From a virus: a stretch of DNA of 64,000 bases. A model generated the notes under the pieces. It saw only the letters and a list, made by a program, of their open reading frames with translations. It did not search any database and had not been told where the DNA came from. Below, one piece after another: positions 7,669 to 64,000 of this stretch. The stretch is taken from IMG/VR virus record IMGVR_UViG_3300009175_000013, positions 1 to 64,000 of that record, one strand, 5' to 3'. Made by a program: the position numbers and the translations under genes. Numbering within the stretch: position 1 is the first letter of the stretch; each line of letters opens with the position of its first letter.

Positions 7669-7681
7669 AGGTATATAATAC

Positions 7682-8029
7682 ATGACGTTCGACCCATACA
7701 ACCAGTGGTTCATCGGCGGAAACATGAACAATCGCATCGCCTGCGGGTGGAAAGGCTTCTACCTAGAATGGTGCGACGGGAAAACCCTCTGCGTCTATGA
7801 CGTCTTTGGGATTAAGTATAAAATGCCCCTCACCGACTTCAAACTAACCTGCATCGAAACCCGATCCATCATCTTCCCCTGGACTATCGACAAAGGCTAC
7901 CTTAAAATCACCCACCCCAATGGCTCCCTGAGCATCTGCCCCTGGGAAATCTATGAAGCCAGAGCTGGCCTCAAATCCATCCGCCTCCCCCTCGACAACT
8001 TTGAATTTATGATTACTATGCCGCTCTAG
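7682..8029 (+). CDS. hypothetical protein
   Basis: 115 residues, rich in aromatic residues and beta-prone throughout (FYLEWCDGKTLCVYDVFGIKY). It overlaps the convergent gene ending at 8016 by 14 bp. No motif recognised; it ends in TAG. Confidence 0.6.
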   Translation: MTFDPYNQWFIGGNMNNRIACGWKGFYLEWCDGKTLCVYDVFGIKYKMPLTDFKLTCIETRSIIFPWTIDKGYLKITHPNGSLSICPWEIYEARAGLKSIRLPLDNFEFMITMPL

Positions 8030-8540
8030 ATTCACCCAATAGCTCAATCAACTTATCCCGCAATAGTGCCGGAGAGAACAAATAGGGCCGCACCCCCAAG
8101 CATGTGAACTTCTCGTAGAGCGACAGCATTTTCGCCACCAACTCCGAACAAAACCACGCCCTGGCCGATGGCTTGGTGCACGGGAAAACAAACCGCAACA
8201 CCCCATTAATATCGTAGGGGCACCCAATCTCCGGCCCCTTATCCACAAATTCTCCCTGCCCCAACAACCAATCCAAAACCTTCTGGTATGGAAAATCATC
8301 CGGAAGCGGATGAATTTCATATAGCGACTCGTCGTAGATAATGGGAGCCCCAGATGGCCCAATATTAGTAAATACCACCCCACCCTTAAGCACAGCCGTG
8401 GCTCGCATAATTACACCATCATCCCGCTGAAACCACAGATCAACATGCCCAAGATTACTCTTCGTGACCCACCCCACCACCACTTCAAGCCAATAGCCTT
8501 CTTTACGGTCAGCATACGGGAACGCAACGTACATCTTCAT
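8016..8540 (-). CDS. permuted papain-like (NlpC/P60 or YiiX-like) cysteine peptidase
   Basis: 174 residues from ATG 8540, chosen because GGAGG lies 8 nt upstream. An early GHVDLWF supplies a candidate catalytic His. Near the C-terminus, WFCSELVAKML has the FCSEL signature of circularly permuted NlpC/P60 peptidases, where the Cys is the nucleophile. GCPYDINGVLRF lies between them. Such enzymes cleave peptide or lipid-linked substrates at the cell envelope, so a role in lysis or entry is plausible but unproven. No signal peptide is visible. Confidence 0.65.
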   Translation of the reverse strand: MKMYVAFPYADRKEGYWLEVVVGWVTKSNLGHVDLWFQRDDGVIMRATAVLKGGVVFTNIGPSGAPIIYDESLYEIHPLPDDFPYQKVLDWLLGQGEFVDKGPEIGCPYDINGVLRFVFPCTKPSARAWFCSELVAKMLSLYEKFTCLGVRPYLFSPALLRDKLIELLGESRAA

Positions 8541-8560
8541 AGGGGCCTCCGATTGTATAT

Positions 8561-8887
8561 TTAATCGGCGAGCCCATCTATTATCGCAGCCGTCCCGCGA
8601 ACCGCTTCGTCCAAATTTATTATCGGGCCATACTGACTCCCCCAATGCCTCTTTCTATTCCTCAGATCAAATTTCTCCAACTCACTAGGCATCATCCACT
8701 GGATAGTATGTAAATAATCCTGCCCCGCCATCTCTACCCCCACCGCTAAGTATAAAATTGCCTTCGAACCTGGTTTAGTGCTACACCACAATTTAACCCC
8801 AACATCATAGATGTAGGTAACACCAAGTTCGTAGACGCGTGCCGGTGACTTCCACCGACCCAAGTCAAGCATTTTAGAACTTTTCAT
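8561..8887 (-). CDS. hypothetical protein
   Basis: 108 residues. Its ATG overlaps the end of the gene ending at 8874. It is beta-rich in the first half (YIYDVGVKLWCSTKPGSKAILYL) and helical at the end. It lies just upstream of the peptidase gene on the same strand. No family recognised. Confidence 0.6.
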   Translation of the reverse strand: MKSSKMLDLGRWKSPARVYELGVTYIYDVGVKLWCSTKPGSKAILYLAVGVEMAGQDYLHTIQWMMPSELEKFDLRNRKRHWGSQYGPIINLDEAVRGTAAIIDGLAD

Positions 8888-9287
8888 GGTAGAGACTCAC
8901 CGCGTCCCGCACCAGTACCGGATTGGGGCAACACTCGCATTTGGCACTCTCACCAATAGCCATCCTGACAGAGAAATCATAACTCAAATTCAACCCGTGC
9001 ATAGAATTTAGATCCTCAATCAGCCCCGTGGCAAGATTTCCTATGGGAAGCCACAACTCCCCATCAAATAAGAATCGAACCGCATTTGGAATATATGAAT
9101 GAGGATCAAGCTCCAAAGCAAAGCACATCATGAAGATGGGTATATTGTGCGGATTGGTTATGTCCTCGGTGAATTCCCCCTCGGGCGTTCGGGCAATCAT
9201 CTTTTCCACAAAAATGGCGTGCCTAGAATAAGGCTCCACAAATGGAAGAAAATCAATGCGCAGATCTGGTGCGGCGCGCTCGTCCAT
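8874..9287 (-). CDS. hypothetical protein
   Basis: About 137 residues from ATG 9287. A longer GTG-initiated form to 9341 would overlap the divergent GNAT gene. It contains a CECCPNPVLV cluster near the C-terminus that may bind metal. No family recognised. Confidence 0.55.
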   Translation of the reverse strand: MDERAAPDLRIDFLPFVEPYSRHAIFVEKMIARTPEGEFTEDITNPHNIPIFMMCFALELDPHSYIPNAVRFLFDGELWLPIGNLATGLIEDLNSMHGLNLSYDFSVRMAIGESAKCECCPNPVLVRDAVSLYHEKF

Positions 9288-9331
9288 GCGACTCAAATAC
9301 TCGGAGCGGTATTTGACCAACGAGGTGCCCG

Positions 9332-9793
9332 ATGTATACACGCTACGCCGAACTCTCCGAAAAGAACTACATCTACGATGGCATCATCGCCATCTGCAAC
9401 TCCGAAATGCATGAACACGAACCCTTCCACCTCCTCATGCCCAAAATCGAGAAAGCAATCAAAAACAAGGAAATCATCGTCGCCGACTCAGTATCATCCA
9501 ACGCCACCGGCATCATCGGCTTCGTCTGGGGAACTATCGGCTCAAAAATCCCCCACGGCATCGATTATGGATATGAGAACAAATACTGCTGGATCAACTG
9601 GACCTACGTCAGCCCCCACCACCGCCACAGAGGAGTCGCCACCACCCTCTACCGCCGCCTCGAACGCGACTGCGCCAGAGCAGGAATACATACCATGTAC
9701 ATCGACTCGTTCCGCATAAACAAAGAATCAACTAAATTCCACCGCCACTTCGGATATAAAACCAAACTCACCATCTTCACTAAGAAAATATAA
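9332..9793 (+). CDS. GNAT-family N-acetyltransferase
   Basis: 153 residues. Motif A is clear: WTYVSPHHRHRGVATTLYRRL contains the RxxGxA/T acetyl-CoA pyrophosphate-binding loop. It follows a beta strand (IIGFVWGTIG) and is followed by ARAGIHTMYIDSFRINKESTKFHRHFGY, the usual beta5/alpha4 segment of GNAT enzymes. The substrate is unknown; in phages such enzymes may modify host proteins, toxins or modified DNA bases. It stands alone on the plus strand among minus-strand small genes. Confidence 0.8.
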   Translation: MYTRYAELSEKNYIYDGIIAICNSEMHEHEPFHLLMPKIEKAIKNKEIIVADSVSSNATGIIGFVWGTIGSKIPHGIDYGYENKYCWINWTYVSPHHRHRGVATTLYRRLERDCARAGIHTMYIDSFRINKESTKFHRHFGYKTKLTIFTKKI

Positions 9794-21788: not shown

Positions 21789-24686
21789 CTATTGGTCTTT
21801 CTGGACCAATATATTATAAATCTCTGTGGCAGCTTTCTTCCGCACTTCCTTAGAGATGCTGTGCTCAATGATGAGCTTCTGCTCAGCACCCTTACGAAGG
21901 CCATCAACTTCATGGAAACTAAGCACATGCTGGTATGCCGAGTTGGTCACGCCATTACGTTTTTCGTCAAGTTTCTCGATGAATTCCCGAATCATCTTGC
22001 CGCGGCGCATCTTCCTCTGCTCCGAAATCAGCCGTTTGTAGTCGTGGTCTAGTCTTTCGCCTAGGCCACCTAGTCCACCAGCTCCGGCACCCGCGCCTGC
22101 GCCTCCGGCACCTGCTCCAGCTCCAGCTCCGGCTCCAGCTCCTAGGCCAGCCCCAGCACCACCAGCTGGCGGTTTGCCGAGACCCTTATCCATCCCGCCC
22201 TCTTTCTTATCCTTATCCCCAGCAATCTTCGGCAACTTATCAGCACCACCAGGAGGCGGCTTGGGTGCTCCACCCAATCCCCCGCCGCCACCGCCCAGCC
22301 CACCCTCTTCATCCTGTAGATCACCAGCTTCCGACATAATTGCAGATAGCTCATCGATCTCATCTGGGCTAAGATCCGAAAACCGCGTGACAATCCATTC
22401 CTTTGGGAACCATCCCAGTTCCTTCAGGTCACTCATCACTGCAGTACGGCTCTGCCAGGTTTCCATACGGTATAGCTCATCGATAGCGCTGGAAGCACTC
22501 ATCCCGATCTCAAACCCTTTGAGATCTTCAATGGTGAATCCCTTCATGGCCAGATGGCAGATAGCAACTTTGGTGAGGCCCATTGCGACTTCGCGCTGAA
22601 CCCATTGTACTGATTTGGCGAATTCGGCATCCGTGGAGGAAAGGGACTTGCCCTGCTCTTCACCCGCGCCCTCACCAATGCCCACTCGCTTAAAGGGGAT
22701 CTTGGTTGGTGCAACCATCTTCTTTTTGAAGTATTCGATGTCCTTGATTTGGTCAAGGTTCTCGGCCCCCTCGAGAGTGTCGATGCTCGGGGCAGTCCCA
22801 TCGGGACGAACCGGCAGGAAGAAATCATCTTCCTGGATGAGTGGGGAGAACCGCTCGTTGAACTGGCCAGTGCGGGGATCGTAGAATTTCTGCTGTTTGA
22901 ACATCCGGGCCACGGCCTGCATGAATTCTGGGATGTCTTTGGCAGCGATATTGCCCACTGGGATCTTGAAGATTCTTTTCTCAGGAGCCCTAGTGATACG
23001 GTAGATGAGGGCCGCATCTTCCATGAGCCGGAGTTGTTTGAAGGCTTTGCGTCCACCTTCCATAATCGCCCGACCATATGGGTGATAGATGTTGGCGTAG
23101 TCGGTCAGGCGGAGGTGCATGACCTGCCATGGGTGCATAAATTGGGGTTCTTCCATTACTTCATCTTGGTGGAAGAATCCTACTAGGTCACCGTGCTTGG
23201 TTTCAATGCGGGTGAAGTTGTACACGTTAACGAAACGAAGGGATGCCACTCCATCGCGATCACGCGTGGGGACGATCTCATATGGGGCGTCGCCATATTT
23301 GCACAGGTACCTGACCATGGGGCGGACGTAATTGTCGATGAGAAGCTGGCTAAAGAACAACTCTTCGAGGGCGTGCTTGACGGCGTGGGTTTTGGCCTTG
23401 ATTACGATGGTGTGCTTGCGTTCGGGATCTACTAAACTGGCTTCGTCACTATTGTGGACAATAATCCATGACGACTCAGTACCGGCTGCAAAGCAATTAT
23501 ATCCATCAACTTCGATATCATATACCTCAGTAGCGGATTCGCAGGGCGTAACCGAGATAACTTTGTGATTACCAACAGCGGCCATTCTAAAATCAACTAG
23601 ATTAGTATTATGCCTTTCAAACAGCCTAAGAATAACTCGCTGAGCACATCCCAGATTGTGTGCTATTTTGCGCACGCTACCCAGATCGCCACCATTATTA
23701 ATGTAATTTAATAAATCATCCCAGGTAACCACTGAATATTCGGCTGTCCTGCGGAAAGATTTACCACTTAGGTTCAATTGCATTCCGCGATTGCGGCAAT
23801 GTGGAGCCATTTTGCATCTATATTCTGAGTTTTGCCATTTCAATTTGGCCGCCTCAGAACACTTAATACGCTTTGATTCGCGGGCCTCACCAGTTAATTT
23901 ACCAAGACCTCTGTGCAACTCGGCATGGTCTGCCCACGTCATCAATTTGAAATTTTCTGGTGAATTATTATACTTATTTAAGTCACAATGGTGTATTACA
24001 CCCTTGCGCTCACCAAACAATTTCTCCCACACCCATTGGTGGGTGGCCTGCCACCTCTGATCTTCTAATTGAATAAATTCATATTCACGATTTACCAACC
24101 CATCATGCAATTTTGATAGGGGCGGCTTTCTGGTTTTATATAATGGAACGACTGATTCGCCAGCGCTTAACTTAGCCGCCTCGACCCAGCCATTTTTCTT
24201 AGTTAAAATTTTATGGTTAGGGGTGCATTTAATAGTCAATCCATCATCAAATAACACTTCAACCATTTTAGCATTGCGACCAGAAACATGGGGGTTCCTG
24301 GCTTTAGCTGGCACATACCGCCCATTTGTAACGTCATAGGCATACACCCAAAATTCGGCATCTATCCCTTTGCTAGCTAATTCTCTAATAGTTGGGTGTG
24401 TTCCATCAAGCAGTGGGATTATGGTATCACCATGCAAACAATATAGATCGAGGGCCAGGGACATTTCCCCGGTTTCATCCATTTGGTCGTAGTCTTTGTA
24501 CCGCTCCAGCCGGTTGATTTGGAGGTTGGTCTGGTTCAGGAGCATCTGCTGCTGGTTGAAGTTCAGCAGTTCATTGCCTGCCATGATGCGTAGCAGGTCA
24601 GATTGGTCCTGGAATAGACGCTCTTGCTGATAGATATTAGCTGAGCGTGCTAGGGATCTGATTCTATCAAATAAATGCCAGCTCAT
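21789..24686 (-). CDS. portal protein (T4 gp20-like) with an intein
   Basis: 965 residues as read; about 635 after intein removal. The N-terminal extein (residues 1-82) ends in SLALDLY, and the C-terminal extein starts SDEASLVDPE, together restoring the LDLYSDEA motif of T4 gp20-type portals. Further portal features: RKHTIVIKAKTHAVKHALEEL, then a long central domain with the DDFFLPVRPDG stretch. Residues about 830-880 are a Gly/Ala repeat (GAGAGAGAGAG), and the C-terminus is a charged coiled coil. The portal forms the 12-fold vertex for DNA entry and neck attachment. It ends in TAG. Confidence 0.93.
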   Translation of the reverse strand: MSWHLFDRIRSLARSANIYQQERLFQDQSDLLRIMAGNELLNFNQQQMLLNQTNLQINRLERYKDYDQMDETGEMSLALDLYCLHGDTIIPLLDGTHPTIRELASKGIDAEFWVYAYDVTNGRYVPAKARNPHVSGRNAKMVEVLFDDGLTIKCTPNHKILTKKNGWVEAAKLSAGESVVPLYKTRKPPLSKLHDGLVNREYEFIQLEDQRWQATHQWVWEKLFGERKGVIHHCDLNKYNNSPENFKLMTWADHAELHRGLGKLTGEARESKRIKCSEAAKLKWQNSEYRCKMAPHCRNRGMQLNLSGKSFRRTAEYSVVTWDDLLNYINNGGDLGSVRKIAHNLGCAQRVILRLFERHNTNLVDFRMAAVGNHKVISVTPCESATEVYDIEVDGYNCFAAGTESSWIIVHNSDEASLVDPERKHTIVIKAKTHAVKHALEELFFSQLLIDNYVRPMVRYLCKYGDAPYEIVPTRDRDGVASLRFVNVYNFTRIETKHGDLVGFFHQDEVMEEPQFMHPWQVMHLRLTDYANIYHPYGRAIMEGGRKAFKQLRLMEDAALIYRITRAPEKRIFKIPVGNIAAKDIPEFMQAVARMFKQQKFYDPRTGQFNERFSPLIQEDDFFLPVRPDGTAPSIDTLEGAENLDQIKDIEYFKKKMVAPTKIPFKRVGIGEGAGEEQGKSLSSTDAEFAKSVQWVQREVAMGLTKVAICHLAMKGFTIEDLKGFEIGMSASSAIDELYRMETWQSRTAVMSDLKELGWFPKEWIVTRFSDLSPDEIDELSAIMSEAGDLQDEEGGLGGGGGGLGGAPKPPPGGADKLPKIAGDKDKKEGGMDKGLGKPPAGGAGAGLGAGAGAGAGAGAGGAGAGAGAGGLGGLGERLDHDYKRLISEQRKMRRGKMIREFIEKLDEKRNGVTNSAYQHVLSFHEVDGLRKGAEQKLIIEHSISKEVRKKAATEIYNILVQKDQ
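23451..24440 (-). other. intein in the portal protein, with HNH homing endonuclease
   Basis: 330 residues (portal 83-412). Block A is CLHGDTIIPLLDG with Cys1. Block B is LTIKCTPNHKILT (TxxH type). Block F/G is ATEVYDIEVDGYNCFAAG then SSWIIVHN, with His-Asn at the end and Ser as the +1 residue. All splicing residues are present, so it should splice. Between them lies an HNH nuclease (GVIHHCDLNKYNNSPENFKL then MTWADHAELH, intein residues 148-176) and an HTH-like segment (LGSVRKIAHNLGCAQRVI). Insertion is inside a conserved portal motif. Confidence 0.9.
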
Positions 24687-53562: not shown

Positions 53563-56403
53563 TTAGGCTGACACTACACCACCAGCCACGAGGATCTCCT
53601 GCGCCCCGAAGCTAGCCCCGGTCCGCAGAATCACCAAGTTCAGGACGATGAATTCTGCGGAGCGGTTGGGCTTGATGAACACCGAAACCCAGAGTTCGTT
53701 CCGATCGATTCTCTCCGGAGTGTTGTTAGTCTCGTCGCAAACCACTTTGAAGGCAGTCAGGCCACGCCGCGCTGCCACATCACCCAGATATGGTTCGATC
53801 AGGTTCCGGATCTGCGCCCGCGTCGAGCCGTCATTGAACTCAAACACGAAGTTACGCAACGTCGAGGACAAATTCTTCTTCAGGGAGATACACAGCATCC
53901 GGACGTTGACCCGGTCCAGAGCCGTGGATTGCCGCTGCAGCGTCCGCTGGCCCCATACCGTAATGCCCTGCTGGATGAAGTTCACGATGGCGTTGACCGC
54001 ATTGCCGCTGCCGTACAGAGCGTCACGCTCACTCTGAGTGGGATTGTATTCCACATCCAAAGCCGAAAGCACGCTGCCACGGTTCAGGCCAGCGGGAGCA
54101 TACCACTGTTCCGCCACCCGATCTGTACGGGCAAAGACCGCCGCGATGTGGCCGCTTGGCGGAACCCAGATGGTCCCACCATTGTACTGATCGCTAATCT
54201 TGAGCCAGCTCCAGTACAGGGCCGCATAGCTGGTATTCAAGGCCGTTGCCAGATCGCTGGTTAACATCCCATTGTGCCAATCGATCACTTCCTGTGGCCG
54301 CAGACCAACTGGCGGATCGATCAGGTACAGGACGTCGCCACGGTTTTCGCAGAACTGAATGCCCTGAGCCAGCACGGGACCGCTCGAGAATCCGGGGGTA
54401 GCCAAGAGGTTGAAGTCGAACGCTTCTGGATTCTGCAGGGCGTAGATGCCAGTGGAGAGAGCCGGGTTACCGATGACCTTCTGGTCCAGGTAGATGCTGT
54501 CTTCGGTTTCCGTCGGGATCCCGTTTTCGCCGCCCACAAAAGCCGTATTGGTGAATGGGCTTGGATTCCGTACATCAACCCCAAGGTAGGAAGGACGAGC
54601 TTCCCACTGGAAGTAAGTATTGCCAGTCACGCCGCCAATTGGGCTGCCGGCATTGACCACATTGCCAATATACCGGGTGGCGGCTGGATCAAAGCTGACA
54701 TCCTGGGTCACATCAACGGCCATGCCGTTGCCATCCTTCACCGTGACCTTGTACCGTCCCGCCACATCGCCCACGCCCTCGGTGAACACTTCCAGCGAGA
54801 TGGTGTAGCCACTGGACCAAGTCCCAGCATATTTCGCCACGACCCAGCCCACAATGTTGTCATAGTAAGCGGAGTCGGTGACGCACTGAGTCCCACTGGG
54901 GGCATCGATACAGGACTGGGGAGTGGTGGGATCGCCCGAGTTACCTTCAGGGAGCCAGAGCCGTGCGTCGGTGAAGGTCCGGTAGATGGAGGTGTACGGC
55001 GGCAGGATGCCGATTTCGTTGGCAAACTGCATAGTCTCGAAGTGGCTGTAGCTGGCCAGAAGCTTCAGCTGATCGGTCATTCTGGCGTCGGAGGTCTGGA
55101 CCACCACCAGCTTATCGCCGCCTGGGATGGTCAGAGCGAATGCGGTGAAATAGTCGGTCCCGCCGTAGTTGGAGTTCGCTTCAAGAGCCGCAGCCAGGGT
55201 GGTTGCATCCGTCCCCGAGACCGCAGGAACCACGAAGTTGAACTCAACCGTGTTGGCCGACCCAATGCAGTCGAGAACGACGCGGTTGTTCGAGCTGGAG
55301 AAGTTGTAGGGGCCAGCATTGGTGCCCAGAAGGTGGCTGCGGGGGATATCATAGGTGTATTGGGCCACGCCGACTTCAGCACAAAAGGCACAAGTCCCAG
55401 CCAGCTGAATCCAATCGCCGACCGTATCGGTTTGGAGAGCCACCACTTCCACGCCGTTGGCATCGAAAGAGGTAGTCGCAGCCAAAGTGGTTACGCCGAG
55501 CACGACGTTAATGGCATTGATCAAAGTCGTGTTGGAGGAGTAGGTGGCCGCAGGCACTACCACGCTGGTAACTGCCCCACCGTCGACTTGGTAGGTCAGG
55601 GTGCGGTTGTCGGGTTTGGAGGTGATCACCAAGGTGTCATTCACACCAACCTGGGTAGCATTGGTAATGGTCACAGTGAAGGAAACCCCGAGGCTTACGC
55701 TGTTGAGGGCCAGATTGATTTGGTTGCTGACAGCCCCAGTGGTGGTGAAAGTGCCAGAGGCGACTTCATCACCTGAGCTGTTAGTGACCACGTAGGTGGC
55801 TCCGTCCCACAGGTGGGTGCCGGGGTCGCCAGTAATGGTAAGGGTGAAGACATCGTCAAGGCAGCCGCTGTACAGAGTCGCGCCACCCACAAAGGAAACA
55901 GTAGTGGTGACTGCGCCGACTGAGGGATCGGCAACTTCGGCGTCATTCCAGGATCCGGCAGTGCTGAGGGCTGCGTGCAGAACAACGGGGGCCGGATTGC
56001 CACCAGTGCCATCGCCAACTGGGCGGAATTTGACACGGCCAAAATCCATGCCCTTGAAGACTGGGATGCGGCCCCAACCCTGCTTGCGTGTACCGGCAGT
56101 GTCGATAGCAATCGGCTCTAGGGTGCTTTTGATGCCGTTGTAGTACTCGACACCTACACGGAGTACATAGCAGGAGTTGCCTTCCTCAAGATACGCCAGG
56201 GTGGCATACCCTAGGTAGCTAGTCGGGAACGGATCCCCGAAGGTGTCAACGAACTGCGCAGCACTGGTGATCAGCGTGGGCACATTGAGAGGGCCTTTGC
56301 TGGCGGCACCAATGAAAGCTGGCCTGAGCGTCCCCAGGTTGCTGGGCAGAAGGCTGAGGTCAATCTCTCTGGTAAATACGCCTGGGCTTAGGAAGACTGC
56401 CAT
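53563..56403 (-). CDS. tail sheath protein (gp18-like), with inserted surface domains
   Basis: 946 residues, much longer than T4 gp18 (about 660). The N-terminus (MAVFLSPGVFTREIDLSLLP) and C-terminal domain (GITVWGQRTLQRQSTALDRV then NVRMLCISLK, and GASFGAQEILVAGG) are conserved sheath features. Residues about 160-480 are inserted, beta-rich and repetitive (TLTITGDPGTHLWDGATYVV; LTYQVDGGAVTSVVVPAATY), and probably project outward. The sheath contracts to drive the tube. Promoter box CAAATATAA and GGAG precede ATG 56403. A short stem (53549-53554 with 53558-53563) lies at the stop. Confidence 0.93.
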   Translation of the reverse strand: MAVFLSPGVFTREIDLSLLPSNLGTLRPAFIGAASKGPLNVPTLITSAAQFVDTFGDPFPTSYLGYATLAYLEEGNSCYVLRVGVEYYNGIKSTLEPIAIDTAGTRKQGWGRIPVFKGMDFGRVKFRPVGDGTGGNPAPVVLHAALSTAGSWNDAEVADPSVGAVTTTVSFVGGATLYSGCLDDVFTLTITGDPGTHLWDGATYVVTNSSGDEVASGTFTTTGAVSNQINLALNSVSLGVSFTVTITNATQVGVNDTLVITSKPDNRTLTYQVDGGAVTSVVVPAATYSSNTTLINAINVVLGVTTLAATTSFDANGVEVVALQTDTVGDWIQLAGTCAFCAEVGVAQYTYDIPRSHLLGTNAGPYNFSSSNNRVVLDCIGSANTVEFNFVVPAVSGTDATTLAAALEANSNYGGTDYFTAFALTIPGGDKLVVVQTSDARMTDQLKLLASYSHFETMQFANEIGILPPYTSIYRTFTDARLWLPEGNSGDPTTPQSCIDAPSGTQCVTDSAYYDNIVGWVVAKYAGTWSSGYTISLEVFTEGVGDVAGRYKVTVKDGNGMAVDVTQDVSFDPAATRYIGNVVNAGSPIGGVTGNTYFQWEARPSYLGVDVRNPSPFTNTAFVGGENGIPTETEDSIYLDQKVIGNPALSTGIYALQNPEAFDFNLLATPGFSSGPVLAQGIQFCENRGDVLYLIDPPVGLRPQEVIDWHNGMLTSDLATALNTSYAALYWSWLKISDQYNGGTIWVPPSGHIAAVFARTDRVAEQWYAPAGLNRGSVLSALDVEYNPTQSERDALYGSGNAVNAIVNFIQQGITVWGQRTLQRQSTALDRVNVRMLCISLKKNLSSTLRNFVFEFNDGSTRAQIRNLIEPYLGDVAARRGLTAFKVVCDETNNTPERIDRNELWVSVFIKPNRSAEFIVLNLVILRTGASFGAQEILVAGGVVSA

Positions 56404-56427
56404 TGGTAGCTCCTGTTAATTTTCGCT

Positions 56428-56443
56428 GCCTTATATTTGAGTG
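56428..56443 (-). promoter_or_regulatory. late-promoter-like element CAAATATAA before the sheath gene
   Basis: The minus strand reads CACTCAAATATAAGGC, 24 nt before ATG 56403, with AGGAGC between. Confidence 0.6.
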
Positions 56444-56460
56444 ATGACGGTAGATTTAGA

Positions 56461-56676
56461 TTATTCTTCGACTACCGCGATATCACCACGGCCTTGGCAG
56501 TTCTTGATCTGAGACCAATTCAAAAAGTTGCGCGGTACTTTGAGCGACTTACCAGGCATTAGCCGAAACTGCTGCTCTTCATAGAAGAAGTCACCATTCG
56601 GCGGCTTAACTTGGATCGGGATGCACTGCCGTGTGCGATTGGTGATGTGGATGTTGGAAGTGGTTTTATTAGCCAT
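56461..56676 (-). CDS. small conserved tail-region protein
   Basis: 71 residues, beta-rich (NIHITNRTRQCIPIQVKPPN, FRLMPGKSLKVPRNFLN). Small proteins of this type sit before sheath genes in several large myoviruses. Start follows AGGAGG. Function unknown. Confidence 0.6.
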   Translation of the reverse strand: MANKTTSNIHITNRTRQCIPIQVKPPNGDFFYEEQQFRLMPGKSLKVPRNFLNWSQIKNCQGRGDIAVVEE

Positions 56677-56706
56677 TAGAACCTCCTGGCTCTGGGTAAA
56701 GACAAC

Positions 56707-56720
56707 TTCTTATTTACACT
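56707..56720 (-). promoter_or_regulatory. late-promoter-like element TAAATAAG
   Basis: The minus strand reads GTGTAAATAAGAAG, 31 nt before ATG 56676. It overlaps the stop of the preceding gene. Confidence 0.4.
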
Positions 56721-57535
56721 CGTCTATTTAGCATTTCAGATTCATCAGCAACAACTTTACCCAGAATCACCGGCATAATCTTCGGCGGAATCGATAGCCA
56801 AGCCTCCGCCGTATACACCACCTCATACTTTACCTTGGCGTATTGCTCCGAGGTAGCTTCCTTCTCGCTGGAATCAGCCGAAGAGTCCATCTTCATCTGC
56901 ACGCATCCCACCGAAATCCCGTCAGAAACCCGCAACTCGGCTAAAGGATTGAAACGCGTCAGCATCTGATATAGCACATACTCAGCGTCACGCTTGTGCT
57001 CGGCCCAGATGCTAATGGTGTAATTCACATTATAAGGAACCGGACGATAGAACGCTGCCGCCATGGTCCGCTGCCGATTCACAAACCTCTTATGCAGATT
57101 GCGATATGGCGGCGAAAACTTCTGCGGATTATAAGTGTGGCCAGTGCGGCTAATGGAGATCACCGGCAATTTTACCCGGCCATGCTTTAAATCTTCAGTC
57201 CAGACTTGCAAGCTGGTCCGCATGCCAGCTACCTTGGCACGAGCGAAGCGATATGAATCTTTTGACGGCACTCTGATGTCTGACCAATAAGCCTTCATCC
57301 CGGCGTCCAAATAGTGAAAGGCCGCGTCGATGGAGTCTTCCACATAGCCTGGCTCGACCCGGCTCTGCTCCCACTGATTAGGAACTCTACCGCTTTGGGC
57401 ATCAGATAGCTGATACGCAGCTACCGGCACCATAGGGCTAATGGGATTGTTAATAGAGCCGCCTGGCACCTGCCCGGCCACAACGCCCCTGGGCACGTTT
57501 TCAAAGGTGAAAGAACTACCAAATTGATGAATCAC
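56714..57535 (-). CDS. tail completion/sheath stabiliser protein (gp15-like)
   Basis: 273 residues. The core LPVISISRTGHTYNPQKFSP then PYRNLHK, VPYNVNYTISIWAEHKRDAE then YVLYQML, and RFNPLAEL, matches the gp15/gp3-type tail terminator pattern (P-V-I-S-I...P-Y-x-x-xY-x-I-x-I-x-x-x). Located between neck and sheath, as in T4. It caps the tail and joins it to the head. Overlaps the upstream stop. Confidence 0.75.
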   Translation of the reverse strand: MIHQFGSSFTFENVPRGVVAGQVPGGSINNPISPMVPVAAYQLSDAQSGRVPNQWEQSRVEPGYVEDSIDAAFHYLDAGMKAYWSDIRVPSKDSYRFARAKVAGMRTSLQVWTEDLKHGRVKLPVISISRTGHTYNPQKFSPPYRNLHKRFVNRQRTMAAAFYRPVPYNVNYTISIWAEHKRDAEYVLYQMLTRFNPLAELRVSDGISVGCVQMKMDSSADSSEKEATSEQYAKVKYEVVYTAEAWLSIPPKIMPVILGKVVADESEMLNRRV

Positions 57536-57810
57536 TTAAGCACCGTCGGGAAAAGAGCCTTGGCCCTGGTAATCAGTTTGAGTTTGGATGCCTCCGCCAT
57601 TTCGCTGGCTGGAATGGTAATCTCATATCCATCTTTATCTTTCCGCTCAGTCACCTGAGGATGGACTTTGCCATTACCCATAGTCTCCATCATCTTGACC
57701 ATTTTCTCCGCAGACTCCTTCAGCTTCTCCATGGCCTTTTTGCGGTAGAATTCGGCCACCGCCTTCTGGCGGTTATTGTCTGCGAGATCATTCCGTACAA
57801 TCTTAAACAT
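57532..57810 (-). CDS. hypothetical neck-region protein
   Basis: 92 residues. Helical and charged first half (YRKKAMEKLKESAEKMVKMM), then EITIPASEMAEASKLKLIT. It overlaps both neighbours by 1-4 bp. Possibly a head-tail connector subunit; unproven. Confidence 0.55.
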   Translation of the reverse strand: MFKIVRNDLADNNRQKAVAEFYRKKAMEKLKESAEKMVKMMETMGNGKVHPQVTERKDKDGYEITIPASEMAEASKLKLITRAKALFPTVLK

Positions 57811-58379
57811 TATTTATGGTCAATATCGATGGTTTCGTCGTTGGTGATATTCTCAACTTGGCACGTCCAGTACAGCCAGTTATACTTGAAGTTGCCAGCG
57901 TCGGCGGCATTCAGAACACGATAGCGATCCGGTTTGATCCCACTCCCACCATAGGGTAGCTCAATGATATCGCCGATGCGGATCATTCTCTGCCCAAACT
58001 CCTTGAAGACCTGCTCCTTACTAAATGAAACCTTGGTTTGGTTGGGCGCGTCCACGCCCCAGGGGGTAAGCTGAGCCTCAATCGGCTGAGGGGCGAACCA
58101 GGCCTTAAGATGGTGCCCAGACCCGTAAGTGGGATCGGGATCTTCCTCCCACACATCATCATAATGCTCGCTGCTCGTGCGTGGATAGACTGTAACATCC
58201 CCGCCAGCAATATTCACGATTTCTTTGGCGATAGATCCAGCCAGAATATGATCCGCACTGCCTGCGTCATGTAGCTGGATTAGAGGGTGCTCCTGCTCCA
58301 TATCCGACCTAGCCTGTAAGCGGCCCTGGCTCGGAGCTACCCTTGTTGCTTCAGAATCTTGCGAGAAGCGATGGATCAT
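57810..58379 (-). CDS. neck protein (gp14-like by position)
   Basis: 189 residues. N-terminal helix, then a beta-rich domain (HHLKAWFAPQPIEAQLTPWG; MIRIGDIIELPYGG; DRYRVLNAADAGNFKYNWLY). The last resembles head-tail joining proteins with a DxYRVLNA strand. Lies between the gp13-like and gp15-like genes, which is the gp14 position in T4. Confidence 0.6.
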   Translation of the reverse strand: MIHRFSQDSEATRVAPSQGRLQARSDMEQEHPLIQLHDAGSADHILAGSIAKEIVNIAGGDVTVYPRTSSEHYDDVWEEDPDPTYGSGHHLKAWFAPQPIEAQLTPWGVDAPNQTKVSFSKEQVFKEFGQRMIRIGDIIELPYGGSGIKPDRYRVLNAADAGNFKYNWLYWTCQVENITNDETIDIDHK

Positions 58380-58795
58380 TTACTTCTCCAGGCGCGGTCT
58401 TCACTCTGCACTTGGCAAGGATCAGCCGCGAACGCATCGCAATTAGCATTGATCAAAGCCTCCTCATCCTCGGTGGCACCACGCGCCAAACCCCGGATAA
58501 TTGAATAGTAATCCGTGAGAGGAGCGCAAGGGCAAGTTTGGTCCACCGCCGGAAGGACCAGTAGCCTTCTATTTCCTGTGAATCCCATGTTGGGGAGAAG
58601 CTCAATATATGAGCCTGGGATAGCCTCAAGGATATCGTTCACATCAGCGATTGATCCCTTGCATAAGCCTTGTAGGCGGATTTGGTTATCCATGGTCACG
58701 GAGGTAATGGTGGTCGAAGGCTCACACCCTGGAACTAAAATGCTACCACCATTCGGGCTTTGAATGACGTTGAACTTAATGCTCTTAGTGATCAT
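58376..58795 (-). CDS. neck-region protein of unknown function
   Basis: 139 residues. Beta-rich N-terminal half (ILVPGCEPSTTITSVTMDNQ) and a Cys-containing C-terminal half (TCPCAPLTDYY, NANCDAFAADPCQ). Coupled by 4-bp overlap. No family recognised. Confidence 0.55.
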   Translation of the reverse strand: MITKSIKFNVIQSPNGGSILVPGCEPSTTITSVTMDNQIRLQGLCKGSIADVNDILEAIPGSYIELLPNMGFTGNRRLLVLPAVDQTCPCAPLTDYYSIIRGLARGATEDEEALINANCDAFAADPCQVQSEDRAWRSK

Positions 58796-58796
58796 A

Positions 58797-59558
58797 TTAG
58801 TACCGGTAAATCATGCTGGCATAGGGGTCATCTGACAACAGTAGGGCTTTCTCGTAAACCTCTTTCTGCAGCTCATACCCCTTAGTCTTCATGGCATCAC
58901 CATCCAGTGTCAGAGAGCCACCATCTGGACTTGGGATGCCACCGAACTTCCCACGGGCGTTGCCGAGCATGATCATGGTCTCGGCTAGCATAAGATCATA
59001 CACTAGCAGTTTGTTGGCCGGCGTACGCCATGTTGAGATCGCTGGGATATAGATCACGAAGACTGGAAACGATCCCTTGGGCGTGGGATATAGCCGGATC
59101 TTATTGTCGCCCAAACACTCCCAGTGACCCTCATTACCCAAAATGCGTTGGCTGAACCGGCGATATTGTTGCAGTAGTGTGTAGTCAGTAAGGATGGTCT
59201 GGATGCCAGTGATGTTTCCAATGTTTGCTGCGATAGACTTGGGGATACCGAGTCTTCGCCGATTTTTGTCCATTAAATCAGAATGCGGTGGAACCGAACC
59301 ACAAGATCGCAGGCACGCTTCTTCCCATGATTTCCCATGGTTAGCATCACCAGAAATAAAGTGGGCCATTTCGTCAGCCACAACATCGCCGGCGGCAGCA
59401 GTACAAAATTTATATTGTGATAAGAATATCTCCCCCGTGTTTAAGTCAGTAAACGCTCCCACATTTGCAATTGGAGCGAGCCTTATTTTTAGATTTCGGT
59501 ATAAATTTGCATTTGTAGTAACATCCTGCTCTCTGGGAATAGGCATAGTGGTGTTCAT
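58797..59558 (-). CDS. neck protein gp13-like, C-terminal part of a fractured gene
   Basis: 253 residues from ATG 59558 (GAGG at 8 nt). Residues about 115-253 look like the C-terminal part of a gp13-type neck protein: NIGNITGIQTILTDYTLLQQ, RILGNEGHWECLGDNKIRLY, LMLAETMIMLGNARGKFG then GIPSPDGGSLTLDGD. The first about 110 residues (including DVVADEMAHFI and ACLRSCGSVPPHSD) are unrelated as far as I can see. The start overlaps the 3' end of the endonuclease gene by 113 bp in another frame. The N-terminal half of the neck protein is encoded at 60460-61173. Confidence 0.7.
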   Translation of the reverse strand: MNTTMPIPREQDVTTNANLYRNLKIRLAPIANVGAFTDLNTGEIFLSQYKFCTAAAGDVVADEMAHFISGDANHGKSWEEACLRSCGSVPPHSDLMDKNRRRLGIPKSIAANIGNITGIQTILTDYTLLQQYRRFSQRILGNEGHWECLGDNKIRLYPTPKGSFPVFVIYIPAISTWRTPANKLLVYDLMLAETMIMLGNARGKFGGIPSPDGGSLTLDGDAMKTKGYELQKEVYEKALLLSDDPYASMIYRY

Positions 59559-60423
59559 GCGATACCTCGCTGAGTTCTTCTTTACTTTTGAACCATAATG
59601 TATAAGTTGTCTCTGGCTTAAGAGCTACCGGATTAACAAACTCAATCATGTTGGCATTAAACCCACCCAAGAATAATTCGTACCCAGCTTCACGCTCTTG
59701 TGCTGTCACTCCACGAAATTTTGCCCCAGCGTTTTTTGCAGCTTGAGATGCGTATAGATATTTATCTAGTGGTATCATGTTTTCGGCTGGTTTGACTTCA
59801 ATCCAACAATCTCCATTCGGTGATTGCACCGAAAAGTCCACAAAATACGTTCTTTGTTTGCCAGTTAACCTGTCAGCATATGGCACTCTAATTAGCTCAT
59901 AGTCCCAATTCTCAACAGATGTGTCGCTATCGAGTAGCAAAGCATAAGATAGCTCGTGAAGCGACTTGAAAAGATGAGGTCCATATCCATATCGTGACTT
60001 AGCTTTGTTGATTTTCTTGATGGTTTCTGGATTACACCCTGGGTGCCTATAACCAGTCTTCAACAAATACCTAAGCTGCATAGCCGCCGCCGCATGCTTG
60101 GGAGGCTTCTTTAGACCATATTTTCGAATTTTAGACCGGACAGTGTTAAAATGCAACCCCAACGATTCGGCTATGGTCTTTGCGTCTTTGTTCGCAATCA
60201 AGTATTCATTATATAAATATTTAGGGGTTAGAACTGATGTGTCTTTTCTGGTTTTAATAAACTCGGCATAGGCTATAGAGCTGTGGTTATGAAGCGAGGT
60301 ATCAACACCCAACTCCTTTAACTTACGTTTAACTGTTATTGGTGCACAACCGAATTCGCTTGCGCATTGCTTTAAAGTATGAGATGTGAAATACGCAACA
60401 AGTCGTGAGCAATCAATATTCAT
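59446..60423 (-). CDS. PD-(D/E)XK homing endonuclease inserted in the neck gene
   Basis: 325 residues. Two N-terminal HTH-like units (TLKQCASEFGCAPITVKRKL and DAKTIAESLGLHFNTVRSKI). The nuclease core is LHELSYALLLDSDTSVENWD ... RTYFVDFSVQSPNGDCWIEV then KP, giving Glu, Asp and the ExK pair expected of this fold. Freestanding nucleases of this kind between split gene halves are known from fractured-gene arrangements with split inteins. Start lacks a strong ribosome-binding site. Confidence 0.75.
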   Translation of the reverse strand: MNIDCSRLVAYFTSHTLKQCASEFGCAPITVKRKLKELGVDTSLHNHSSIAYAEFIKTRKDTSVLTPKYLYNEYLIANKDAKTIAESLGLHFNTVRSKIRKYGLKKPPKHAAAAMQLRYLLKTGYRHPGCNPETIKKINKAKSRYGYGPHLFKSLHELSYALLLDSDTSVENWDYELIRVPYADRLTGKQRTYFVDFSVQSPNGDCWIEVKPAENMIPLDKYLYASQAAKNAGAKFRGVTAQEREAGYELFLGGFNANMIEFVNPVALKPETTYTLWFKSKEELSEVSHEHHYAYSQRAGCYYKCKFIPKSKNKARSNCKCGSVY

Positions 60424-60459
60424 ATACTATGTTTGATTGCCCATTGTGTTATTAATATA

Positions 60460-61173
60460 TTAATGCACCAGTATCGGCTGGCCACCATGGCATCCGTAAA
60501 AACAATGTGCACCAACCACATATATTGTTGTGGTCGGCCCAAACCCAGCGGCCTTAACGTTTAAAATCTTGTTCTTGCAACCAACACCAATCGCCTCCCC
60601 AGTCACCGCTTTGGCTTCAACCCAATCATTGATCATGTCGTCGATACCATTGATTTTGATTGGGTGGTTCGGAGTGCACTTTAGCAGGCCACCCTCGTAC
60701 ACAACCTCAACCAGTTCTTGGTCTTGTTCGTGACGTTCTAAGATTAATTTGCGAGGTCCATATGGCGTTTTGGCTTTGAATTCGGGCTTCCACTCAGCCA
60801 AGTCCACAAGCACCCCATCGTCACGCAAAACCATCATCCCATCAGCAAAACAGAACAAGAAGCTCTCGGCCCCGAACACGTCGCCAATATTGGTTGAAAC
60901 TGGATCCCAAGCCACTTCTTGGACCCAGTAGGCATCATTGGGGAGTGGGTAGGTACTCACCAACGGGGTGCTGTAGAAAACGGCGAAACGCTGCTCTTTG
61001 GAGAGATAGTGGGCGATGAAGTTGCCCGTGGTCTTGAGCACGGTCTCCCACTGGTCTTCGCTGACTTCTACTTCTACGGAGGATAGACCTAATTTGGATA
61101 GGACATACTTTTTGATTGGTTCGCTGTCAACCTTCAAAACGTACGGCAGTTCAGACGGTCCCAGAATAGCCAT
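60460..61173 (-). CDS. neck protein gp13-like, N-terminal part fused to a Hint (intein) domain
   Basis: 237 residues. Residues 1-107 are the neck-protein start (SELPYVLKVDSEPIKKYVLS, AYWVQEVAWDPVSTNIGDVF then GAESFLF). Residues 108-237 are a mini-intein: CFADGMMVLRDDG (block A), LLKCTPNHPIKIN (block B), TTTIYVVGAHCFYGCHGGQP then ILVH (block F/G). It has 130 residues and ends in His-stop, so the final Asn and the +1 residue are missing. Normal splicing should not be possible as read. The Cys1 step and N-terminal cleavage could still occur. Confidence 0.75.
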   Translation of the reverse strand: MAILGPSELPYVLKVDSEPIKKYVLSKLGLSSVEVEVSEDQWETVLKTTGNFIAHYLSKEQRFAVFYSTPLVSTYPLPNDAYWVQEVAWDPVSTNIGDVFGAESFLFCFADGMMVLRDDGVLVDLAEWKPEFKAKTPYGPRKLILERHEQDQELVEVVYEGGLLKCTPNHPIKINGIDDMINDWVEAKAVTGEAIGVGCKNKILNVKAAGFGPTTTIYVVGAHCFYGCHGGQPILVH

Positions 61174-61184
61174 AGTTACCTCCG

Positions 61185-61198
61185 CTTTATGTTTGCAA
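61185..61198 (-). promoter_or_regulatory. late-promoter-like element GCAAACATAAAG
   Basis: The minus strand reads TTGCAAACATAAAG, 11 nt before ATG 61173, with CGGAGG between. Confidence 0.5.
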
Positions 61199-61227
61199 CG
61201 CGAAACTCAGCGGCTAGGCTGACCGGA

Positions 61228-61773
61228 TTATAAGGGGAAGTGCATCCCGCCGTGCCCGTAGATGACCCCGCCGACATCCATCTTGATCGTCTGCACGTCC
61301 ACAGAAGTAATGGCCGCTTCAAGCGATGTCTTCAGGGCTTTGCACGCAGCAGCGTTAGCAGCACTCGGCATGGTGTCAGTACTATACCCCTTTGGCCCAG
61401 ATGCGGGACCCTTCCAAACTTTCCCCACACTAATTAATGTCTTTTCGCCGTAGGGCACCGCGGCGCTGTCGTCATCGTAGAATCCCACTACGGTCACAGT
61501 GTCAGGAAATTCGCCCATTTGCGGCTTAACCGAGACAGCATTAACGGTGCTCGCCAGAGAATCAGCATCTACTGCCAACCCCCAATGTACTGCCCCACCA
61601 GGCGCTGCCATATTGATGCCAGGGCCAGTGCCAGACTCATTTTCGAGTGTGGTATAGAGATCGCCCCAGATGAGGTGGGCAATCCGCTCGCGGCTGCGCA
61701 CGATCTCAAACCGTTTCCCGCTACCCCGTTCCGGTACGATCTTGAAATAAGCCACGAATGGGATTCTATTCAT
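61228..61773 (-). CDS. hypothetical head/neck protein
   Basis: 181 residues from ATG 61773 (GGAG 7 nt upstream; an upstream TTG-type start has none). Mixed alpha/beta with Gly/Ala-rich loops (NESGTGPGINMAAPGGAVHW), and a C-terminal GVIYGHGGMHFPL. Possibly a head completion or decoration protein by position. Confidence 0.6.
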   Translation of the reverse strand: MNRIPFVAYFKIVPERGSGKRFEIVRSRERIAHLIWGDLYTTLENESGTGPGINMAAPGGAVHWGLAVDADSLASTVNAVSVKPQMGEFPDTVTVVGFYDDDSAAVPYGEKTLISVGKVWKGPASGPKGYSTDTMPSAANAAACKALKTSLEAAITSVDVQTIKMDVGGVIYGHGGMHFPL

Positions 61774-61785
61774 GTTTCGTCTCCA

Positions 61786-61808
61786 GTACAATATATTTGC
61801 ATAATCCC
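61786..61808 (-). promoter_or_regulatory. late promoter: GGGATTATGCAAATATAT
   Basis: The minus strand reads GGGATTATGCAAATATAT. Almost the same 18-mer (one difference) is found at 62051-62073 before the next gene. The box ends about 12 nt before ATG 61773. Confidence 0.65.
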
Positions 61809-61811
61809 ATA

Positions 61812-62039
61812 TTAGGCGTTCTCGATGGGAGGATCCAGCGGGGGAGCGTCGGCGGCTTCTTGGAACAGATCGCCACCGACACTATTTGGCTGCTCTTCTA
61901 CGAACTTGTCTGCACCCACTTCAAAAATAGTGACCTTACCAAAGGTGGCTGGATCATTGGGGCCAACCATAGCCGATAGGTCTTTCTGAGCTGCAACATC
62001 CACAGTAACTGGAAGGCCACGGTTTCTGCATCTTGACAT
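61812..62039 (-). CDS. small protein, paralogue of the C-terminal domain of the next gene
   Basis: 75 residues from ATG 62039 (AGAGG 6 nt upstream). RGLPVTVDVAAQKDLSAMVG, GADKFVEEQ, NSVGGDLFQEAADA and PPIENA match the C-terminal half of the protein at 62137-62565 nearly residue for residue. Probably a duplicated small structural protein. Confidence 0.75.
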   Translation of the reverse strand: MSRCRNRGLPVTVDVAAQKDLSAMVGPNDPATFGKVTIFEVGADKFVEEQPNSVGGDLFQEAADAPPLDPPIENA

Positions 62040-62050
62040 ATTGCACCTCT

Positions 62051-62073
62051 GATGATATTTTTGCATAATCCCC
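62051..62073 (-). promoter_or_regulatory. late promoter: GGGATTATGCAAAAATAT
   Basis: The minus strand reads GGGATTATGCAAAAATAT upstream of ATG 62039. Its near-identity with the 61786-61808 box outside the coding regions points to a conserved control site. Confidence 0.65.
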
Positions 62074-62080
62074 AGATACA

Positions 62081-62108
62081 CCAGTGGCCCGGAATTCCGG
62101 GCCACTGG
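62081..62108 (-). terminator. 28-bp perfect palindrome, terminator after the 62137-62565 gene
   Basis: A perfect palindrome (CCAGTGGCCCGGAA and its complement) forms a 13-14-bp stem. It starts 28 nt after the stop codon of the upstream gene and lies just before the promoter of the next. Confidence 0.75.
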
Positions 62109-62136
62109 CTGGGGTGTTTCTGAAAAGCCTGCTTGG

Positions 62137-62565
62137 TTAGGCGTTTTCGACTGGCGGAACGATTGGGGCTGCAGCGGAGGCTTCGGCGAAGAGGTCGCCG
62201 CCCACGCTGGCCGCCTGTTCCTGGACGAACTTGTCGGCACCAATCTGGAAGGTCTCGACCACGCCGACCAGAGTCGGGGCGTTGAGGCCAACCATCGCCT
62301 TCAAATCCTTCTGCGCCTGGAGGCCAACGGTGACCGGCAAGCCACGGGTAGCTCCCGCGCTGGCATGGCCCATGAACGGGCTGAAATCGGTCACAGTGGT
62401 AGTCCGGCCATTGTACTGGGTCCGGAATTCCGACCCTGGGACAACCAGGATCAGCTTACGCAGATGTCCGGTGAGGTTCTTGATCGAGTCGCCGCGGAGG
62501 TACTCACGCTGCGAACGAACGGTGCGGAAAATGTGAATTGCTGTGTTTAGGGGTTGGTCTGCCAT
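62137..62565 (-). CDS. virion-type protein, first gene of the minus-strand tail/neck run
   Basis: 142 residues. N-terminal half beta-rich (HLRKLILVVPGSEFRTQYNG, RTTTVTDFSPFMGHASAGAT). The C-terminal half (RGLPVTVGLQAQKDLKAMVG, GADKFVQEQAASVGGDLF) is shared with the protein at 61812-62039. Preceded by GGAG and a CAAAAGTATTTA box, followed by a strong terminator, which suggests high, separate expression. Confidence 0.7.
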   Translation of the reverse strand: MADQPLNTAIHIFRTVRSQREYLRGDSIKNLTGHLRKLILVVPGSEFRTQYNGRTTTVTDFSPFMGHASAGATRGLPVTVGLQAQKDLKAMVGLNAPTLVGVVETFQIGADKFVQEQAASVGGDLFAEASAAAPIVPPVENA

Positions 62566-62610
62566 GATCTTGCTCCTTTACTCAGGCATGTCCTTTACTC
62601 AGGAAACACT

Positions 62611-62629
62611 CCATAAATACTTTTGCCCG
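62611..62629 (-). promoter_or_regulatory. late-promoter-like element GCAAAAGTATTTA
   Basis: The minus strand reads CGGGCAAAAGTATTTATGG upstream of ATG 62565. The divergent lyase gene starts at 62672, with TTGCAGTATTTAACC in the opposite direction. Confidence 0.45.
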
Positions 62630-62671
62630 AAACCCGTACTCTTGCAGTATTTAACCCAGCACGGAGGACCT

Positions 62672-64000
62672 ATGCACGACACATACCAGTCACCCCTAGT
62701 CACCCGCACCGCATCTACAGAAATGTCCCACATCTGGAGCGACAATAACAAATTCAAATTATGGCGTGGACTATGGTACGAGCTAGCCGCCGCTCAAGCC
62801 GCCCTCGGGATTCCCATTACCCCAGCTCAATTGGCAGAGCTCGCAAAGGCCATCAATATCCCCATTAACCACGCCAAGGCTGCAGAGTACGAAGCCAAAA
62901 CCAACCACGATGTCATGGCCCACATTAAACTGCTCGGAGACGACGCCCCCTCTGCGGCTGGCATTATCCATTTGGGTTCGACCAGCCAATTCGTAGTCGA
63001 CAACGCCGACTCGATCAGAATCAGATCATCCATCCAACTTATATTATCTAAACTGCGCAGCCTAGTCATATCAGTAGGCACCTTCGCCCAAGAACACCGC
63101 AGCGTCGCCACTTTGGCCTTGACCCATTTCCAGCCAGCCACGCCGACCACAGTCGGACGCAGAGCCGCATCGTGGTCATATGGTCTATACCTAGTTTACA
63201 CTGAACTGCTCGCCAAATTCCAAAACTTGCGAGCACTCGGAGCTAAAGGCGCGACCGGGACACAAGCCTCCTTTCTTGAACTATTCAGCGGGGATAAGGA
63301 AAAGGTTGATGAACTCGACCGGCGTGTCTGCCGGGCGATCGGTTTCGATGAAATCTACATGCTCAGTGGCCAAACCTATCCTAGAGTAGATGATAGCGTT
63401 CTTACCTGCCTGATCGCAAATTTGGCCGCCGAATGCCAGAAAATCACCACCGACATTCGGCTCCTCAGTGGTAAGGGAGAGATGGCCGAGTCCTTTTCTA
63501 AGGATCAGGTGGGCTCGTCCGCAATGCCCTATAAGAAGAACCCGCTCACGTGTGAACGTGTCTGCGGCCTATCCAAATTCATCATCGGCCTAGCAACTTC
63601 CTCTCTCTTGGTTACAAGCGAGCAATGGCTTGAACGCACCCTCGATGACTCCAGTGCCAGGAGATTAATCCTTCCAGAAGCCTTCCTCGCAATCGACGGC
63701 ATCCTCGAGTCTATGAATAAGATCTTCAAAGGTCTAGTCATCAACAAACGCGTAATTCAAGCACACCTGATGGATGAAATCGGATTCCTGGTCACTGAGA
63801 AAGTGCTAATGATCGCCTGCAAACACGGAGCTGACCGCCAGAAAGTACATGAGGCCATCAAGCAATGCGCCCTAAGCTGCCAAGGCGACACCTTCCTCCG
63901 GGAATTGCAAAAATTGCCAGAATTGGCCAGCATCGATATCGCCAAAGAATGCGCCGCCAGCAGTCTAATCGGCCTAGCCGAGGAGCAGACCATAAGATAT
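62672..64000 (+). CDS. purB: adenylosuccinate lyase (partial, runs to the window end)
   Basis: 443 codons visible, still open at the window edge; bacterial PurB is about 430-480 residues, so it is nearly complete. Start ATG 62672 follows GGAGG. Key motifs: EAKTNHDVMAHIKLLGDDAP (catalytic His region), IIHLGSTSQFVVDNAD, THFQPATPTTVGRR (second His), and the superfamily signature SSAMPYKKNP. It cleaves SAICAR and adenylosuccinate in purine synthesis, in the host cytoplasm. As a phage auxiliary metabolic gene it would raise purine nucleotide supply for replication. On the plus strand, divergent from the structural genes. Confidence 0.95.
   Translation, partial: MHDTYQSPLVTRTASTEMSHIWSDNNKFKLWRGLWYELAAAQAALGIPITPAQLAELAKAINIPINHAKAAEYEAKTNHDVMAHIKLLGDDAPSAAGIIHLGSTSQFVVDNADSIRIRSSIQLILSKLRSLVISVGTFAQEHRSVATLALTHFQPATPTTVGRRAASWSYGLYLVYTELLAKFQNLRALGAKGATGTQASFLELFSGDKEKVDELDRRVCRAIGFDEIYMLSGQTYPRVDDSVLTCLIANLAAECQKITTDIRLLSGKGEMAESFSKDQVGSSAMPYKKNPLTCERVCGLSKFIIGLATSSLLVTSEQWLERTLDDSSARRLILPEAFLAIDGILESMNKIFKGLVINKRVIQAHLMDEIGFLVTEKVLMIACKHGADRQKVHEAIKQCALSCQGDTFLRELQKLPELASIDIAKECAASSLIGLAEEQTIRY

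Follow-up and report, generated by a model that had tools for sequence, protein, structure and literature searches.

The window, the whole 64,000-base stretch that was analyzed and itself part of a 74,637-base virus record, carries a neck gene that its open reading frames place in two pieces, with a nuclease gene in between, all three on the minus strand. The first piece, or N-part (61173-60460), starts with an ATG at 61173 and encodes 237 amino acids: 107 neck residues (the N-extein, codons 1-107, 60853..61173), which end in GAESFLF and were aligned to 23 uninterrupted neck proteins, and a Hint domain of 130 amino acids (Cys108-His237, 60463..60852), which ends in GGQPILVH and was recognized from a structure model and VIA. 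A TAA stop codon (60460..60462) takes the place of the terminal Asn of an intein. The nuclease gene that follows (59446..60423) encodes a TnsA-like PD-(D/E)XK protein of 325 amino acids (PF08722, E 1.7e-9), and the start of the second piece of the neck gene, the C-part (59558-58797, 253 amino acids), overlaps it by 113 bp. The first 111 residues of the C-part (59226..59558) are not neck sequence; they form the zincin-like domain described below, with a candidate zinc site, D62-E63-M-A-H66 ... H74, at 59337..59375. Neck sequence resumes with the C-extein, which runs from Asn112 through the stop codon (58797..59225), aligns to the uninterrupted neck proteins and has GenBank relatives annotated as the neck protein or head-tail adaptor of jumbo phages. 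We propose a cut before Asn112, at the seam I-A-A|N-I-G (59217..59234). Comparison of the inserts at nine loci sets the limits of the whole cassette, 1,627 bp (59226..60852), between the Phe codon of SFLF and the Asn codon of NIGN. A search of positions 56000-64000 of the window against Rfam gave no hit at E <= 1, and a group I or II intron was rejected as an explanation.

Scans of IMG/VR with the C-part, and then with profiles of the N-part, the nuclease and the Hint domain, brought the number of distinct fractured loci to nine: the window and eight from IMG/VR (L003, L053, L055, L058, L059, L060, L090 and L094). The C-part scan returned one phage with the same arrangement, L003, at 58 to 67% identity in the N- and C-parts. 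Two further contigs that repeat L003 and L055 were left out of the count (L004, on another contig, is an identical copy of L003). The order of the four parts, N-extein and Hint, nuclease, zincin-like domain and C-extein, is common to all nine, and the fractured neck gene with a freestanding nuclease between its halves that the earlier note had claimed for the window is a recurring arrangement. The cassettes range from 1,564 to 2,024 bp and are inserted at the same codon junction in every locus, between SFLF and N(I/V)GN. Excising them in silico leaves SFLF|N(I/V)GN, with no residue missing or added, in each of the nine, and the joined exteins of the window come to 249 amino acids, a length equal to that of the nearest uninterrupted relatives. 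The uninterrupted neck gene, reading SFLF|N, is present on 40 contigs that represent 25 distinct sequences; 23 of the 40 contigs were included in the neck alignment and the neck tree.

Several of these loci carry features of their own. Just upstream of the N-part of L003 (1684-3147, minus strand) is a nuclease-like open frame of 487 amino acids, and its start is preceded by a stretch like the one ahead of the window nuclease (ATATACTATGTTTGATT), perhaps a shared promoter. L055 has a 79-amino-acid open frame between N-part and nuclease (5701-5940) and, downstream of the C-part, a frame of 561 amino acids with the look of a homing endonuclease (7668-9353). The C-exteins of L053 (7711-8493) and L059 (6935-7627) exceed the rest in length by approximately 17 to 27 residues and share the ending KD(V/I)VC.

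Five changes of state, at least four of them forced by well-supported branches, are required to account for the fractured genes on the neck tree. The nuclease of L058 clusters with those of the window, L003 and L055 (100/100) and its neck protein does not; the nuclease of L053 clusters with that of L094 (99/98) and its neck protein falls among uninterrupted genes. Hint trees recover the same two groups as the nuclease trees, and one metagenome yielded both a locus with the cassette (L090) and a locus without it (L109). The cassette is patchily spread and has moved horizontally, and we are confident, short of certainty, in regarding the arrangement as a mobile cassette. Profile searches of the records of seven of the nine loci found one cassette per record; beyond the neck locus they returned no zincin match, one weak Hint match (the portal intein of the window) and two partial nuclease matches. 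In tblastn searches of GenBank phages we found nothing with the window N-part (E <= 0.01) or with the Hint domain of L058, and in the search for the cassette in other genes, in GenBank phages or in cellular genomes, nothing better than chance-level matches came from the L060 Hint domain or from the zincins of three loci (the window, L053 and L094). A match of the L094 zincin in LR745206 was rejected, since it is an HNH protein.

The nuclease has helix-turn-helix-like segments at its N-terminus, and its active-site residues (E157, D196, E209 and K211) are intact in all nine loci. A wider nuclease scan returned the same loci and three distant matches to the nuclease domain, and a scan of genome contigs found no relatives of the nuclease. 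Among the 40 matches listed from GenBank, where 993 records reach E <= 0.1, most are T4-type head-completion proteins, which have the same nuclease fold.

In the model, the only part of the Hint fold that is missing is the Asn. Ten-residue blocks of the model of residues 108-237 have mean pLDDT values of approximately 78 to 96, mostly above 85; VIA aligns the model with the gp41-1 intein 6riz (Z 17.1, rmsd 2.0, 120 aligned) and with the hedgehog structure 1at0 (Z 15.4, rmsd 2.9, 125 aligned), and the top Foldseek match is the BIL domain 2lwy. Residue 237 pairs with the residue that precedes the Asn in 6y75 (142, before N143), 6riy (144, before N145) and 9hth (158, before N159); the fourth titled chain, 6zgq (N146A; range ending at 148), misfits that pairing. 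In all nine loci the domain stops at the position of the terminal Asn of an intein, with TAA in five, TAG in two and TGA in two, the window included. The last residue, in the position of the penultimate His of inteins, is His in eight loci and Ser in L003, the eight domains outside the window ending in ILVS, VVGH, VLVH, VLIH, VLVH, ILVH, VLVH and ILIH. Compared with the portal intein of the window phage, which ends in IIVHN|S, the neck Hints stop one residue short. The shared stop and the model alignment bear out the description of the window intein as contiguous, one residue short and stopped at its catalytic Asn, and no normal contiguous intein occupies the site in any homologue among the neck loci fetched.

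The portal gene of the window (approximately 23465-24460, minus strand) contains a canonical intein of 330 amino acids, the IIVHN|S intein just mentioned, and an open frame of 830 amino acids on the plus strand (at approximately 25987), possibly the large terminase, appears to contain a second canonical intein end, LIVHN|C.

What the neck Hints have kept is selective. Cys1 and T-x-N-H are present in all nine loci, none has a terminal Asn, and none is followed by Cys, Ser or Thr at the +1 position. With columns matched by eye, the block F Asp is absent throughout (T, S, T, S, S, A, S, A and S, vs D in the portal intein) and the usual block F His is found in four of the nine. The fully kept residues are those of the first step only, the roles of the catalytic and block F residues being those given in PMC4031507. 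The first residue of the C-extein is Asn in every fractured locus, as it is in each of the 25 distinct uninterrupted sequences; because this position does not hold Cys, Ser or Thr, no standard branched intermediate can form here, whether or not a terminal Asn is present.

The C-part was searched for the C-terminal fragment of a split intein; none was seen, and zincin matches appeared instead. The earlier note had likewise recognized no intein-C there, but the "strange 110-residue" extension that it described is a domain conserved in all nine loci and, judged by its sequence, a small zincin-like domain (minigluzincin, WLM/SprT-like). All nine carry (H/D)ExxH and a third His, the Glu and both later His being invariant. 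Profile comparison matches the domain to the minigluzincin proabylysin (4jiu; E 2e-5 for the seven-row profile and 1.9e-4 for the nine-row one), and also to selecase and projannalysin, and the zinc ligands line up in these alignments. Foldseek places it with selecase (4qhi; probability 0.97, E 0.24) and with a viral SprT protein (probability 0.99, E 0.068). The window domain by itself has no Pfam match at E <= 10; some other members match WLM, SprT-like and M78 families, all below threshold.

The position of this domain directs attention to the seam. In all nine loci the residues before the C-extein Asn are a hydrophobic residue, Ala or Gly, and Ala, Gly or Ser, so that P2 and P1 hold nothing but small residues and P1' is Asn. 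Within the same alignment only one other of 62 gap-free columns is so restricted, and that column is an invariant Gly. The seam, Phi-(A/G)-(A/G/S)|N, looks like a cleavage site, which we treat as putative. In proabylysin the C-terminal tail occupies the protein's own active-site cleft and touches the zinc (PMC5557861), and the corresponding tail in the C-part runs straight into the seam.

The anatomy of the cassette, its conservation, its spread and the constraint acting on every one of its parts, documented below, are demonstrated and form the ground for the interpretation that we favor. Our best reading, held with belief and doubt in equal measure, is that a homing cassette is taken out of the protein by two enzymes, one on each half. 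The Hint domain of the N-half, its catalytic residues kept in all nine loci, would convert the Phe107-Cys108 bond to a thioester. The zincin of the C-half would then excise itself at Ala111|Asn112, standing in for Asn cyclization. In the third and least certain step, the alpha-amine of the freed Asn112 would attack the thioester to give ...SFLF-NIGN..., with Hint and zincin released; this is the route proposed for A-type BIL domains, in which a free amine attacks the thioester (PMC4031507). The first Asn of the C-extein may sit in the slot of an intein's own Asn. Finally, to judge from its residues and its distribution, the nuclease would cut the uninterrupted neck genes of co-infecting phages, and the cassette would spread as a result.

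The step-1 residues of the Hint domain, the Glu and two His of the zincin and the scarless junction, each without exception among the nine loci, all speak for removal by two enzymes, and self-removal on both sides seems to us probable on these sequence features. Ligation of the neck halves is the bold step; argued by analogy, we give it slightly less than an even chance, and it would require Hint and zincin to meet, a hypothetical encounter. If it does occur, the neck would be the product of natural trans-splicing without Asn cyclization, one that couples a Hint thioester to a zinc peptidase, ligates F|N scarlessly and travels with its own TnsA-like homing nuclease. We offer that full combination tentatively, and ligation at an F|N junction without Cys, Ser or Thr, which it entails, is to be taken as an equally tentative suggestion.

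N-terminal thioesters are also prone to hydrolysis. Were the thioester hydrolyzed instead of attacked, and the zincin still to cut itself away, the neck would be assembled from two chains with correct, clean ends. The sequence evidence for scarless ends fits such trimming without ligation equally well; BIL domains mostly perform N-terminal cleavage (PMC7664689), and two separate peptides make up a working ribonucleotide reductase whose gene a homing endonuclease has split (PMC10448857). For a neck made of two chains, however, a plain stop and restart would suffice, yet the catalytic residues of the Hint domain have been kept in nine diverged loci, and we consider trimming alone unlikely, while taking it seriously.

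Removal by two enzymes also presupposes that the zincin is active. The domain could be a noncatalytic relative that docks on the Hint domain or aids translation or folding, leaving the Hint alone active, in which case it would stay on the C-part or be cleaved off by a protease of the host or the phage. Asp takes the place of the first zinc ligand in four of the nine loci (the window, L003, L055 and L058), and because DExxH is known to us from no proven peptidase, the domain may lack activity in those four. In three loci (L059, L060 and L090) the domain is very short, at 65-66 amino acids, with its first strands missing. Structure prediction of the extension, which the earlier note had suggested, produced a weak model (mean pLDDT 59 for the C-part, approximately 63-83 for the zincin portion) and a middling VIA match to proabylysin (Z 6.9, rmsd 3.2, 80 aligned), with unrelated helical proteins scoring equally high; the VIA list for the zincin part is unusable because helical rows fill it. 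Yet the catalytic Glu and two His persist in all nine loci, HExxH is complete in five (L053, L059, L060, L090 and L094), and the domain ends throughout in the cleavage-like sequence described above. A domain with no catalytic part to play strikes us as improbable.

Decay is a still poorer account. The N-part would then hold the remnant of a contiguous intein that was broken by the nuclease gene and has fallen out of use, with which the missing Asn and +1 nucleophile and the lost block F residues agree. Against it, the same exact end is common to nine loci that reach it with three different stop codons, and every cassette part is under constraint: in six pairs each, pN/pS is 0.29-0.58 for the Hint, 0.42-0.63 for the zincin and 0.36-0.49 for the nuclease, values that are rough because pS is near saturation and that never reach 0.65 in any pair or part compared. 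Nor did a neck profile search find a second copy of the neck gene in any of ten records, two of which represent the same locus and some of which are fragments. We regard disuse as highly improbable. A sequencing error, readthrough or recoding at 60457-60465 that masks a normal continuing intein can be set aside, for while skipping one base of the window stop would give VHN and a short unrelated peptide, comparison of the loci rejects error, recoding and frameshift alike: no error was found at the stop, eight other distinct loci end there too, independently and with TAA, TAG or TGA, the frames from N-part to nuclease vary among loci, and the front of the C-part is an unrelated domain.

Removal by two enzymes builds on what the earlier note had recognized, the broken gene, the short intein and the nuclease, and adds what it missed: a zincin-like domain abutting the start of the C-extein, the mobility of the cassette, and Asn at +1. 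The outcomes listed in that note, two chains, N-terminal cleavage only or an unusual trans reaction, still span the possibilities. In inteins and BIL domains, the C-side of the junction is released by the terminal Asn of the domain itself (PMC4031507). The neck cassette points to a previously undescribed means by which two protein halves may be freed and perhaps joined again; if this is true, a homing cassette would have a further route of survival within a structural gene that the phage cannot do without. Should ligation not occur, the arrangement would still be new, with a Hint domain and a zincin each trimming its own half of a broken gene. In the open-licence literature we found no paper linking inteins to zincins or SprT domains, which is weak evidence of novelty.

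Fractured genes are among the closest known systems. Dassa et al. are said to have described, in 2009, fractured genes in which split inteins occur together with a freestanding endonuclease. Each half of such a gene bears part of the intein. The neck locus resembles them in its broken host gene, in the intein-type machinery on the halves and in the nuclease gene between; unlike them, it has a whole, Asn-less Hint on one half, a zincin-like domain on the other, and a nuclease that is TnsA-like. The break in a split intein falls between motifs B and F (PMC4031507), whereas here the whole Hint domain, as far as the penultimate residue of an intein, is on the N-half, and the C-half holds a different domain.

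As in A-type BILs, the neck Hint lacks Cys, Ser or Thr at +1. A-type BILs end in His-Asn and are cut on the C-side by Asn cyclization (PMC4031507); here the Asn is present in none of the nine loci and the His in eight, and a zincin-like domain stands at the C-side cut. Hedgehog Hint domains carry out the first N-S acyl shift only, with no Asn cyclization (PMC7664689). The neck Hint is like them in dispensing with Asn cyclization, but the hedgehog nucleophile is cholesterol, and that system has no second protein half, peptidase or mobility. The (H/D)ExxH and third His of the zincin-like domain line up by profile with the HExxH and third His of the minigluzincins (proabylysin, projannalysin and MJ1213/selecase), Wss1/WLM and SprT; those proteins are freestanding in the entries examined, whereas this domain is fused ahead of a phage structural protein and has Asp for the first His in four of the nine loci. 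In the gene-in-pieces ribonucleotide reductase, the halves are not known to carry a Hint domain or a peptidase. That gene was split by a homing endonuclease (PMC10448857).

Several features of a homing element are present at the neck locus: intact nuclease residues, a single insertion point, empty sites and horizontal spread. Those of a class 1 intein are there in part, with the N-terminal Cys, block B TxxH and the Hint fold present and both the C-terminal Asn (or Gln, Asp or Glu) and the +1 Cys, Ser or Thr absent. Because it has no Asn and no +1 nucleophile and its intein is not split, the locus falls outside the class 1 inteins, the split inteins and the A-type BILs; it has the build of a fractured gene and a Hint domain of the intein kind.
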